From Pseudophaeobacter sp. EL27 (lineage in GTDB: Bacteria; Pseudomonadota; Alphaproteobacteria; Rhodobacterales; Rhodobacteraceae): a stretch of 64,000 bases of DNA. Position numbers and translations under genes: made by a program. The stretch lies in NCBI RefSeq assembly GCF_900313025.1, contig NZ_OMPQ01000015.1, positions 257,775-321,774 of the forward strand, read 5' to 3'. Numbering within the stretch: position 1 is the first letter of the stretch; the number at the start of each line of letters is the position of its first letter. Positions 33,688 through 36,331 of this stretch are shown piece by piece. The notes beneath the pieces are model-generated. The model saw nothing but the letters and a program-made list of their open reading frames with translations, was not told the DNA's origin and searched no databases.

Positions 33688-34668
33688 CTAGGCGGTTAGG
33701 CGTTGTCTGACTGTTGGCCGCAGCACCTGCCCCCAAAGCAGGAAGGCACCGGACCCGATCACGATACAGCCGCCTATCCAGGTGCCCTGGGTTGGCATTT
33801 CGCCAAAAATCCAGGCCCCGATAGTCAGCATCCAGACAAATTGCAGGTTCATCAACGGTGTCACCACATAGGCAGGCAGCAGACGAAGGGCCGAAACTGC
33901 GAGCCAGCGGGCGGCAAAAAGCAGCACGGCATATCCCAAGACCCAGACCAGATCGCTCAGCGGCATCGGCTGCCAGACAAAGGGAAATAGCGGCAGCATC
34001 GCAAGACAGAGCAGCAGGTTTGGATAAAAAACCTGCGGCAGAAGATTTGTATCATAGCGACTGATGTAACGCGCCATCACCATGGAGAATGTCCCCCACG
34101 CCGCCCCCGATAGCGCCAGAACATGCCCTCCCGATACGGAAGAGACGCCGCTGGGAAACAAAAACAACACTCCAACAAAGCCCAACCCCAGGGCTATCCA
34201 GGCCCAAAAACTGATCCGCTCTTTCAGAATCAGCCCCGACATAACCCCTGCCAGCAGCGGCATAAGGCCGATAAACAGAAAGACCTGCGCAAAGGGCAGC
34301 AGTCGAAAGGCGTAAAAAAAGCAAATGGCCCCCAGAAGGGCCGCAAAGCTTCGCAAGGTCATGGCCCGCGGGCAAGCGGTTCGCCAGGGAATAATCCCGG
34401 TTTGGGCCGCCTGCCCAGATGGCGACACCTGCCGCTCTAGGGGGGCGCTCCCCATGGTCCGCATTTTGCCCCGAGCAGCCTCCCGAGATATGCAGCCCCA
34501 GCTGACCAGCACCGACAGCAAAGCTACAGCACCACCTGAAATCACATAGATCTGCGCCGCCTCGTAGCCCCCTGACAGCAGTTTGATGATGCCATCGGCA
34601 GAGGAGACAAAGCCCGTATAGCCCACGATCATTAGTGCGCCCAAAACCGGAGTTGACAGCCCCCTCAT
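33688..34668 (-). CDS. DMT (EamA) family permease, coupled to the repeat-peptide unit
   Basis: A 326-residue membrane protein with about ten hydrophobic segments in two EamA halves (LGALMIVGYTGFVSSADGIIKLL; FLFIGLMPLLAGVMSGLILKERISFWAWIALGLGFVGVLFLF; TQGTWIGGCIVIGSGAFLLWGQ). A basic, less hydrophobic stretch of about 45 residues follows the second helix. Its ATG (34666-34668) overlaps the TGA of the upstream 384-residue gene (34665-34667) as ATGA, so the two are translationally coupled. That context suggests it exports, or otherwise handles, a product of this unit, which is inference only. A hydrophobic count alone cannot tell import from export. Confidence 0.85.
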   Translation of the reverse strand: MRGLSTPVLGALMIVGYTGFVSSADGIIKLLSGGYEAAQIYVISGGAVALLSVLVSWGCISREAARGKMRTMGSAPLERQVSPSGQAAQTGIIPWRTACPRAMTLRSFAALLGAICFFYAFRLLPFAQVFLFIGLMPLLAGVMSGLILKERISFWAWIALGLGFVGVLFLFPSGVSSVSGGHVLALSGAAWGTFSMVMARYISRYDTNLLPQVFYPNLLLCLAMLPLFPFVWQPMPLSDLVWVLGYAVLLFAARWLAVSALRLLPAYVVTPLMNLQFVWMLTIGAWIFGEMPTQGTWIGGCIVIGSGAFLLWGQVLRPTVRQRLTA

Positions 34669-35819
34669 CCGTTGTTCACCCGCATAAATGGCTGCTGCTG
34701 GATGGTGCCCCTGCGGGCAAAGCCATCAAAGAAAGTGCCAAACCTATCAAAGCTCTTCTCGGCTTCACAGAGAAGCCTGTAGTCGCCCTCGCTGAACCCG
34801 TCAGAGATCTGCGGCCGCAGCTTTTGCCAATCCCCGGATCGCCCCTCCAGCTGATAAGCTGCGTGGGACAGGTGATGCAGAATTCCCTGGCGGGCCGGGC
34901 GCTGAAACCGCAGCGCGCCTGTTGGAACCCTTTGATGAAAAGACGCCTCCCCAGTTAGCGCCTGATGCCAACTGCTCACCAGGAACATATGATAGTCGTC
35001 ACGGTGCAGCGCAGGCGCGCCGGCGCGCCCCGCCTCGATCAGCGCAAATCCCTGATGATGCAGTTGCAACCAATCCTCCCACACCTTTGAGGGCATCTCG
35101 CTGCAATAGCGCAGCGACACACAGACCTCAGACAACAGATCAGCGTCTTGATCCAAAAAGGCCAGCAGCCCGACATGGTTGAGGCTGTGCACGGCAGTAG
35201 CCGACAGCCCCGGATCACGGCGGCCATAATCGCTCAGATAAAAGACAATATGTGTCAGCTCATAGGCTGCCTTACGGTTGGGCACAGCAAACTGAGCTGT
35301 ATTGTCGACAAACCCATGCAGCCTGTCATCCAAACCGGGAAAATCCCCCACCAGCCCGCGCCGCGCCAACAGACGGCGCGCTTCGGCGCGCTGCAGGTCA
35401 GATAATTCATGCCCCGGCAGATCCTGTTGCATCACCCAATGGGCCAGATCCTCGCCCCTGCCAGGGGTGCCAGCCAGTCCAAGATCCTCAAGATCCATAC
35501 AGATGGACAGGATAAACCGGTAATACTGCCTGAAAAAGCAAAGGTGGCGGTCAGCATCCTTGTAAAAGCTCCGAAGCGGGGCCAGTGCGTCCGGGCATAG
35601 CTCAGCAGCAAGCTCGCTCAAATCGCCCGCACCAGCCCCCGTGGCACCCGTGGATTCTCCCGTACATTCGAGCACATTCAACAGTTCAGCATTCTCTTTC
35701 AACCAGTAGACATCTTCCCGTGAGTGGCGATGCTTAGACAGGGCTGAAATCAGGTGAGACAAGTTGTCGACACGGCGCAACGGCAACCTGGAATTGGGAA
35801 ATTTCAGAATCTGCGCCAT
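34665..35819 (-). CDS. Uncharacterised 384-residue protein beside the repeat peptide (probably DUF6902)
   Basis: A soluble, mostly helical protein of 384 residues with no signal peptide and no membrane segment. Noticeable parts are a basic N-terminus (MAQILKFPNSRLPLRRVDNLSHLISALSKH), an aromatic/His stretch (DADRHLCFFRQYYRFILSICMDLEDLGL), AYELTHIVFYLSDYGRRDP, SLNHVGLLAFLDQDADLLSEVCVSLRYCSEMP and HRDDYHMFLVSSWHQALTG. The many His, Asp and Glu residues could bind a metal, but no known catalytic motif is obvious. From memory it resembles a Rhodobacterales-restricted family named DUF6902, and I cannot verify this. It sits 105 bp after the repeat peptide and is ATGA-coupled to the permease, so it may modify, bind or mature the peptide. 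Confidence 0.75.
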   Translation of the reverse strand: MAQILKFPNSRLPLRRVDNLSHLISALSKHRHSREDVYWLKENAELLNVLECTGESTGATGAGAGDLSELAAELCPDALAPLRSFYKDADRHLCFFRQYYRFILSICMDLEDLGLAGTPGRGEDLAHWVMQQDLPGHELSDLQRAEARRLLARRGLVGDFPGLDDRLHGFVDNTAQFAVPNRKAAYELTHIVFYLSDYGRRDPGLSATAVHSLNHVGLLAFLDQDADLLSEVCVSLRYCSEMPSKVWEDWLQLHHQGFALIEAGRAGAPALHRDDYHMFLVSSWHQALTGEASFHQRVPTGALRFQRPARQGILHHLSHAAYQLEGRSGDWQKLRPQISDGFSEGDYRLLCEAEKSFDRFGTFFDGFARRGTIQQQPFMRVNNG

Positions 35820-35889
35820 GTATTTCTCTCCCTAGACCTCGCCTACAGGGGCCTGCCCTGGCCCCAGTGCCTTACCACCGCCCCAAAGA

Positions 35890-35912
35890 GGCGCGCTCGC
35901 AAAGAGCGCGCC
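35890..35912. terminator. Stem-loop between the repeat-peptide gene and the next gene
   Basis: A perfect 9-bp stem (GGCGCGCTC / GAGCGCGCC) with a five-base loop lies 12 bp after the peptide stop. On the minus strand it is followed by CTCTTTGG, too poor in T for a full terminator. It would suit partial termination or 3'-end protection that makes the peptide mRNA more abundant than the downstream genes. Confidence 0.6.
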
Positions 35913-35924
35913 ATAGCTTTTGTT

Positions 35925-36236
35925 TTAGCTGCCCGAAGAGAACAGCCCAGACAGATCACCCCGCACAACAGAGGTCTCTGCTGTCGGCGCCGACCCGGAT
36001 GAGAACAGCCCAACCAATGCGCCGGAGGTTTGATCACCGCGCGCCTGAGGCGCAGAGCCAGAGGAGAACAGCGCTGAGTTCTCACCGCTCCAACAGCTAT
36101 TCATTTCAGGTGCAGAGCCGGACGAAAAAAGCTCAACCCCATCACCACGGAACAGGCTGCATCCTTGTCCTTCCGCCTCAACCTCTGTCAGAGCCGGGGA
36201 AAAAGTCGCCGTGTGAGTTTTATGCAAAGCAGTCAT
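35925..36236 (-). CDS. Repeat peptide with four LFSSGS motifs (candidate multi-core precursor)
   Basis: A 103-residue protein. Residues 1-25 (MTALHKTHTATFSPALTEVEAEGQG) are non-repetitive. The rest is four units of variable sequence, each ending in LFSSGS at residues 36-41, 56-61, 77-82 and 98-103 (spacing 20, 21, 21). The first three are followed by Ala-Pro, while the fourth ends at the stop codon. GD or RGD-like turns precede several repeats, and there are only two cysteines (26 and 48). There is no signal peptide and no membrane helix. A GGAGG site five bases before the ATG fixes the start, dropping 15 codons of a longer frame. The layout suggests a leader plus repeated cores processed from one chain. 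A structural or surface repeat protein is the alternative. I know of no established function. Confidence 0.8.
   Translation of the reverse strand: MTALHKTHTATFSPALTEVEAEGQGCSLFRGDGVELFSSGSAPEMNSCWSGENSALFSSGSAPQARGDQTSGALVGLFSSGSAPTAETSVVRGDLSGLFSSGS
35928..36131 (-). repeat. Four in-gene repeats encoding x(14-15)-LFSSGS
   Basis: The four repeats share the six-residue LFSSGS motif exactly, while the 14-15 residues between motifs vary freely in sequence. Such a contrast points to selection on the motif rather than recent tandem duplication. Confidence 0.85.
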
Positions 36237-36302
36237 TGGAACCTCCGTTGGAAATGAATAGTCACCCCCAAAGGCTTGCACGGCTTTTCCTGTCTGAAAA
36301 CA

Positions 36303-36331
36303 GCGTAATTCAATTTCAGGTTGCCAGTCAA
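36303..36331 (-). promoter_or_regulatory. Possible promoter of the repeat-peptide gene
   Basis: On the minus strand TTGACT is followed after 17 bp by TTACGC, about 70 bp before the peptide start. The -35 element is good and the -10 is poor. The surrounding DNA is AT-rich compared with the rest of the window. Confidence 0.3.

Follow-up and report, generated by a model that had tools for sequence, protein, structure and literature searches.

Why does a gene for a protein of 103 residues spell the hexapeptide LFSSGS four times, and how is its product related to the genes behind it? The question is raised by a locus of Pseudophaeobacter sp. EL27 that lies in a stretch of 64,000 nucleotides (the window, i.e., the whole stretch of DNA that was analysed). 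Three genes on the minus strand follow each other there in the order repeat peptide, 384-residue protein and permease. An earlier note on this DNA had proposed a multi-core precursor peptide with a transporter, and had found no recognised modification enzyme. The 384-residue protein, uncharacterised in that note, is a member of the Pfam family DUF6902 and is homologous to DUF6895, a family for which an epimerase is named in the title of one paper. Given this homology to a family in which an epimerase has been reported, we favour, with moderate confidence, a new pathway of the ribosomally synthesised and post-translationally modified peptide (RiPP) type, with epimerisation as its likeliest chemistry. 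Its parts would be a precursor with several cores, a peptide-modifying enzyme (DUF6902) and, in most cases, an exporter (EamA). The arrangement by which a RiPP is recognised, an encoded leader-core precursor beside a dedicated enzyme, was found at the locus, and the enzyme would act on the peptide. No description of such a cassette was met among the literature listed by our searches, which covered few subscription journals.

The repeated core

The four copies of LFSSGS start at residues 36, 56, 77 and 98 (spacing 20, 21 and 21), and the sequence bore out the earlier description of the repeat, its spacing, the GGAGG site and the last copy at the stop codon. Shuffling the 103-residue protein 20,000 times never produced a hexapeptide in four copies (19,964 shuffles gave no repeat, 34 gave two copies and 2 gave three). 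The FSSGS codons of copies 1 to 4 were TTT TCG TCC GGC TCT, TTC TCC TCT GGC TCT, TTC TCA TCC GGG TCG and TTC TCT TCG GGC AGC, respectively; as the codons differ, the four cores are no fresh duplication of DNA. Six equal-length precursors from the window's genus gave a ratio of nonsynonymous to synonymous change (dN/dS) of 0.011/0.72 (about 0.015) for the core, with 8 nonsynonymous differences in 15 pairs, compared with 0.12/1.04 for the spacer and 0.19/0.60 for the leader, where amino-acid change was highest. Conserved spacers with a freely varying LFSSGS had been named as a refutation of the precursor model; the opposite was seen, and LFSSGS proved to be the conserved part of the precursors, as the earlier note had expected.

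The wider set of precursors showed the same pattern. Between diverged units (prefixes differing at two or more positions; pairs within one protein are not independent) the core had 2483 synonymous and 355 nonsynonymous codon differences, and the upstream prefix had 1488 and 3527. The synonymous mismatch rate per protein was alike in core (0.47) and prefix (0.49) (78 precursors, Wilcoxon p 0.20). The cores are under purifying selection and are not the result of recent duplication. Slippage can create repeats of such a period, but an artefact of low complexity or duplication without function has next to no probability here: the residues stay fixed between copies though synonymous codons vary, the core dN/dS is very low, and arrays adjoin 86 of the 89 DUF6902 genes considered below. 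A chance or slippage origin was ruled out by the shuffles, the codon variation and dN/dS together.

A loose unit pattern detected 542 units in 86 readable precursors, 83 of which had at least two units (8 of the 83 from congeners of the window). Three loci (L055, L070 and L133) fell outside the pattern, though the peptides of L070 and L133 are repetitive. Spacing was 20–21 residues in 406 of 459 cases, an x-Pro pair (AP, GP, SP, TP or EP) followed at least 375 of the 459 internal cores, and the array ended exactly at the core end in 55 of the 83 precursors. The family-wide frame of the unit was G-D/E-x-V/T-x-L/M/A-F. The pattern fixes G and restricts residue classes at several positions, and the entropies depend on it. 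Behind F, the next four positions had an entropy of 0.04–0.07 bits within a protein (precursors with at least four units) vs. 0.92–1.98 bits between proteins, so the within-protein value was 2–5% of the other. Uniformity of the core within a precursor averaged 90.5% of units. Mean identity within and between proteins was 94% and 52% for the core, 60% and 43% for the prefix, and 31% and 14% for the linker. The 83 precursors had 37 majority cores, with FSSGS in 23, FTSWS in 9, FTSGS in 5 and FTSGL in 4, and 33 others.

The core changed as a whole array between lineages. Two near DUF6902 relatives (branch support 91) carried FSSGS (L080) and FCSAS (L089) arrays. A quickly built tree with 81 DUF6902 proteins was used to ask if core and enzyme change together: the core labels needed 48 changes, and 100 shuffles needed 56.2 on average and never fewer than 53. 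The clearest single position was 9 (21 changes vs. 34.1, shuffle minimum 29), and positions 7 and 10 (29 vs. 36.4 and 24 vs. 26.9, respectively) just equalled the lowest shuffle. The change of whole arrays bears on another reading, in which the arrays are a multivalent binding or regulatory protein (a scaffold, decoy or anti-factor) that binds DUF6902 or another partner and stays unmodified. A repeated binding motif would likewise remain uniform within a protein, and no protease was noticed nearby by eye. We nevertheless hold this reading to be quite improbable, as the whole array changes its core between near lineages while DUF6902 keeps many invariant polar columns, most arrays stop exactly at a core, and a permease is linked.

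Cores of another kind replaced the F-led core in L065, L087, L126 and L133 (SYIAGL/AYIAGL, MMCCS, MMSCS and ALSPSC); these are useful natural variants for substrate tests.

Leaders started with M-x-A-L/Q in 51 of 80 precursors, a count inflated because the choice of start codon favoured M-S/T-A/S/T-L-like starts, and had Lys at position 6 in 62 of 80. The leader of the window's precursor is not hydrophobic, and export of the precursor by the Sec route was rejected, as in none of 78 leaders did the Kyte-Doolittle value exceed 1.6 over any 14 residues in a row. The window's precursor matched no Pfam family and no NCBIfam model at E≤1, and two further precursors matched no NCBIfam model at E≤0.1. 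Among ten precursors scanned, several matches exceeded Pfam cut-offs (UBA_HYPK, DUF7372, DUF6284 and Herpes_UL35), but the families were unrelated and no single stretch passed; the matches were rejected because summed repeat scores behave in this way. A CRAM_rpt stretch (20.4 bits, cut-off 19.8) was short and of the same summed-repeat kind. DUF6749, a conceivable fit for the repeats, gave no match in the window or precursor scans.

Linkage of peptide, DUF6902 and permease

Of 295 sampled genomes of the window's family, 82 had DUF6902; the 14 control genomes all lacked it. It was found in 10 of 12 genomes of the window's genus, one of which (G009) had broken pieces only. We fetched 89 loci, made up of 80 of the 82 (all except the window's own genome and a contig-edge fragment in G174) and nine congeners. 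A repeat or short multi-motif peptide lay upstream on the same strand in 85 of the 89, or 86 with L108, whose array is interrupted by N, so the co-occurrence of the two proteins that the earlier note had asked about was found. The gap between the two genes was below 200 bp in most loci. A second collection, in which the loci are named and the genomes partly the same, showed an array in 75 of 80 loci. Of the other five, L181 had an array with varied copies, L212 was the N-interrupted L108 locus again, none was seen in L169 and L185, and L208, whose enzyme was missed by the motif, was unread. The best 80 loci were all named as Rhodobacterales or unplaced alphaproteobacteria, with PF21843 (DUF6902) searched within the window's family.

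The search was also made from the peptide side. One array from another genus matched 61 of the 295 family genomes, and 58 of the 61 had DUF6902. The three others (G027, G075 and G300) were marginal, with E of 2.6e-4 to 7.7e-4 and internal stops, and G091, G233 and G245 among the 58 were equally marginal. The listed matches of the 58 fell at the DUF6902 locus; the exceptions were fragments in G062 and G088 that lay on separate contigs, and in both genomes the array of the locus is cut off by a contig end. As this search overlooked 24 of the 82 genomes with DUF6902, orphan arrays with distant cores could escape it. Repeat homologues without the 384-residue gene had been expected to speak against the model, and the three marginal genomes were all that appeared.

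The cassette lies between genes that we take, by their sequences and not by a profile, to be exonuclease III upstream and HesB, dGTPase and ArgS downstream; they look like housekeeping genes. In 20 of 20 regions of DUF6902-less genomes the window's proteins detected no precursor, DUF6902 or EamA by tblastn, a test whose short precursor query could miss a very different array. Exonuclease III and HesB were both seen in 17 of the 20, with gaps of 14 to about 1,350 bp (80 bp in the congener G010). The test covered 20 of the 22 DUF6902-less genomes searched (all but G004, which had no dGTPase match, and G023), and the family had 213 negatives. EamA relatives listed for DUF6902-less genomes were about 22–35% identical.

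The same genes disappear together in decay. G009 carries a broken EamA copy of 57–62% identity beside broken DUF6902 and precursor genes. In this locus (L055, G009:C14:84116-86507) all three are broken by stops or frame changes, and the cassette is in decay. In another congener (L047, G001:C64:28308-29463) the DUF6902 match consisted of two overlapping pieces in different frames, a possible frameshift, beside an intact precursor.

With L055 set aside and contig ends included, 69 of 88 DUF6902 loci had an adjacent EamA gene; EamA was thus usually in the unit but dispensable. In the same 88 loci, exonuclease III was upstream in 82, HesB was present in 76 and dGTPase in 77. Adjacency in most loci, together with the failure to detect it at all 20 empty sites, upheld the claim that the permease is as a rule part of the system. 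Precursor, DUF6902 and EamA behave as a module. The DUF6902 protein had no match in plasmids.

The DUF6902 protein and its possible chemistry

The 384-residue protein matched DUF6902 with 428.3 bits (cut-off 27, E 2.5e-128; residues 1–369, profile 1–350 of 351) and DUF6895 (PF21836) with 82.9 bits (cut-off 23.8, E 3.3e-23; residues 29–250). As DUF6902 was by far the better match, the window protein is a sister branch and not a core DUF6895 member. The permease matched EamA (PF00892) in two stretches (68.7 bits, cut-off 28.2). A profile-profile comparison placed the H, D-E and YH motifs of DUF6902 opposite those of DUF6895 (E 6.9e-9, probability 95.8). DUF6902 had E, H, D, E and YH in common with eight DUF6895 proteins, whose sources were Streptomyces, Bacillota, Gemmatimonadota and further genomes from the window's phylum. 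The invariant E43, Y176, H180, G189, D219, E223, Y271 and H272 of the DUF6895 protein P0007 (8 sequences) corresponded to E45, Y186, H190, G199, D227, E231, Y276 and H277 of the window protein, respectively; the stretch from Y186 to H277 was aligned by profile-profile comparison and E45 by eye. Y186 and Y276 were only nearly invariant in the DUF6902 alignment.

Among 73 DUF6902 sequences 60 columns were invariant, and a more diverse set of 44 left 38; many of these columns are polar. AlphaFold2 (73 sequences) gave a confident all-helical model with a mean predicted local distance difference test score of 90.4 and a predicted template modelling score of 0.89. Many of the polar invariants lie near the starts of alternate helices (K41/E42/E45, Y99–R101, E138–R144, N181–H190, D227/E231 and D274/H277) and, if the model is a toroid, would face one mouth. 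Foldseek against the PDB returned no match at E≤0.001, and the protein had no relative among solved sequences. The nearest shapes among the Foldseek candidates were alpha/alpha toroids with Z of about 8–12 (drimenol synthase, farnesyltransferase beta, complement C3/C4 and terpene cyclases), a likeness that in helical proteins may reflect only a common arrangement.

From the sequences we consider it probable that DUF6902 acts on the repeat peptide. The reaction is a more tentative matter. Epimerisation is the likeliest chemistry because DUF6902 is homologous to DUF6895, for which the title of Shi et al. (ACS Catal. 2026; ref. 371 in PMC13352647) reports a lasso-peptide epimerase; by this homology we would call it possible and somewhat short of even. 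The same precursor logic with another reaction, e.g., dehydration, cyclisation or cross-linking at core Ser/Thr/Cys, appears less likely still. Of the 542 units, 527 had Ser (459), Thr (51) or Cys (17) at core position 8, where the pattern used admits only S, T, C, N, A, F, G and P, and lyases, cyclases and one transferase are among the toroid shape matches. On the other side, cores nearly without hydroxyl or thiol groups exist (YIAGL), and the sole functional clue in the superfamily is that epimerase title.

Peptides were also present beside some DUF6895 genes. In 5 of 9 DUF6895 loci (Streptomyces and Proteobacteria among the sources), these five from outside the window's family, the upstream side carried a gene for a small peptide. 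The peptides have an aromatic motif in common, which was duplicated in two of the five. The motifs were LIGPWYAYH in L278 (Streptomyces sp. NBC_01243), GPWYIYK and GPWFVLK in L226, LVGPWFVL in L225, VAGYVFVW and VAGYIYTE in L276, and VAGYVLAW in L280. None of the GPW[YF]/VAGY[VI] peptides scanned exceeded a Pfam or NCBIfam cut-off. They are probably further substrates of the DUF6902/DUF6895 superfamily. L277, L275 and L281 had a small open reading frame lacking the motif. The Streptomyces chartreusis plasmid locus L279 (5607-7888) had two tandem, unannotated DUF6895-like genes, and no peptide was identified there.

In the proposed pathway the 103-residue protein would serve as a precursor in the cytoplasm, made up of a short leader and four units. 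Every unit would pair a core, here (L)FSSGS, with a recognition stretch ahead of it, which across the family reads G-D/E-x-V/T-x-L/M/A. DUF6902 would bind the precursor and modify each core in turn, most likely by inverting one residue from L to D by means of E45, H190, D227, E231 and H277, common to both families. A housekeeping protease may then free the cores, x-Pro following most internal copies and the stop the last one, and in cassettes that have it the EamA permease would carry the small product out of the cell. Cores alike within a lineage and unlike from one lineage to the next would fit a signal as well as a specific toxin. The multi-core model, correct in outline, is well supported: it stood in linkage, in core conservation and in both tests that had been set for it, whereas modification, cleavage and export are steps that we infer.

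Several observations weigh against this pathway. The DUF6902 and DUF6895 profiles are only 16% identical, and the reaction may therefore differ from that of DUF6895. Four of the nine DUF6895 loci had no recognised shared-motif peptide. No upstream peptide was found and EamA was not adjacent in L064, whose DUF6902 is very divergent, and in L135. The peptide-DUF6902 gap was 491 bp in L110 and 342 bp in L089, and EamA was not adjacent in 19 of the 88 loci (in L104 only 73 bases of contig were left). No protease or known RiPP enzyme was noticed among the neighbour clusters common to at least eight loci, read by eye without profiles.

Known systems were compared with the cassette. The DUF6895 system named in that title is alike in its homologous family, in the E/H/D/E/YH motifs and in the aromatic-motif peptide upstream in five of the nine DUF6895 loci; it differs in that DUF6902 is paired with multi-core arrays. 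Neither a lasso cyclase (asparagine-synthetase-like) nor a leader peptidase was noticed by eye among the same neighbour clusters. MslH, the epimerase of the MS-271 lasso peptide, acts through two His/Asp pairs near a Ca(II) ion according to excerpts of PMC10406935, which may plausibly parallel the two conserved His and the acids of DUF6902. Its fold is calcineurin-like while DUF6902 is predicted to be all-helical, and so DUF6902 is no homologue of MslH.

The FxSxx-COOH systems of Actinobacteria, as outlined in part of PMC7159879, pair a precursor with a radical SAM/SPASM enzyme and a metallopeptidase, and are similar in the small, fast-evolving precursor with a conserved C-terminal F-x-S-x-x. 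FxsB (TIGR04269) exceeded its cut-off in none of 20 genomes (19 with DUF6902; G087 without), and weak matches below threshold occurred in 16 of the 20 and in 11 of the 14 controls. Membership was rejected, as no FxsB passed and the tested precursors matched no NCBIfam model. Multi-core microviridin precursors such as AMdnA carry several cores for one processing enzyme (excerpts of PMC5934393); they differ in their ATP-grasp macrolactonisation, and their enzyme and cores are unrelated.

The cassette occurs in dozens of marine bacteria, each with its own motif running through the whole peptide, and its product seems to belong to a class of bacterial peptides not yet described. If the pathway is real, two families of unknown or barely known function become a peptide-modifying superfamily with substrates in hand. 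A group of marine bacteria gains a natural-product pathway that our literature searches did not meet, and a natural experiment is provided in how a repeated core stays uniform within a gene and changes between lineages. The minimal form of two or three genes and the many natural cores make testing easy and may be useful for placing D-residues in peptides. A bolder version, which we regard as speculative and rather unlikely, is that the cassette makes lineage-specific D-residue mini-peptides of about five residues (FSSGS, FSTSC, FTSGL, FTSWS), up to 20 copies of one 'word' per gene, as recognition signals between related marine bacteria. The lineages would rewrite all cores together, and DUF6902/DUF6895 would be a broad toroidal epimerase family with cognate precursors across several phyla.

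Features of the locus

Table 1. Coordinates of the cassette in the window and of the DUF6895 loci with an upstream peptide (each in its own locus numbering).
Feature	Position	Strand	Basis
Repeat precursor peptide gene, 103 residues, four units each ending LFSSGS	35925..36236	-	Sequence; homologous arrays beside DUF6902 in related genomes
GGAGG ribosome-binding site, ahead of precursor ATG	36242..36246	-	Sequence
Leader, residues 1–26 (M-T-A-L-H-K...)	36159..36236	-	Exact end approximate, as deduced
Core copy 1 LFSSGS, residues 36–41	36114..36131	-	Sequence
Core copy 2 LFSSGS, residues 56–61	36054..36071	-	Sequence
Core copy 3 LFSSGS, residues 77–82	35991..36008	-	Sequence
Core copy 4 LFSSGS, residues 98–103, abuts TAA stop	35928..35945	-	Sequence
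9-bp GC-rich stem-loop between precursor and DUF6902 genes	35890..35912	.	Intergenic folding z −1.72
DUF6902 protein, 384 residues, predicted all-helical; proposed peptide-modifying, epimerase-like	34665..35819	-	Profiles and model
EamA/drug/metabolite transporter (DMT)-family permease, 326 residues; proposed exporter	33688..34668	-	Pfam EamA
DUF6895 locus L225	8050-9738	+	
DUF6895 locus L226	9922-7955	-	
DUF6895 locus L276	5295-3481	-	
DUF6895 locus L278	6747-7825		
DUF6895 locus L280	6548-8674		

The stop of the DUF6902 gene and the start of the permease gene share a 4-nt ATGA overlap, and this and the stem-loop between the first two genes were both seen as the earlier note had reported them. 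The region as a whole had no excess of terminator-like sites (5 vs. a shuffle mean of 4.6). The stem-loop might, on slender grounds, be an attenuator. Intergenic hairpins were weakly enriched across the loci, with z below −2 in 18 of 78 (median −0.76), compared with 6 of 60 (median −0.12) in control stretches of 75 nt inside reading frames.

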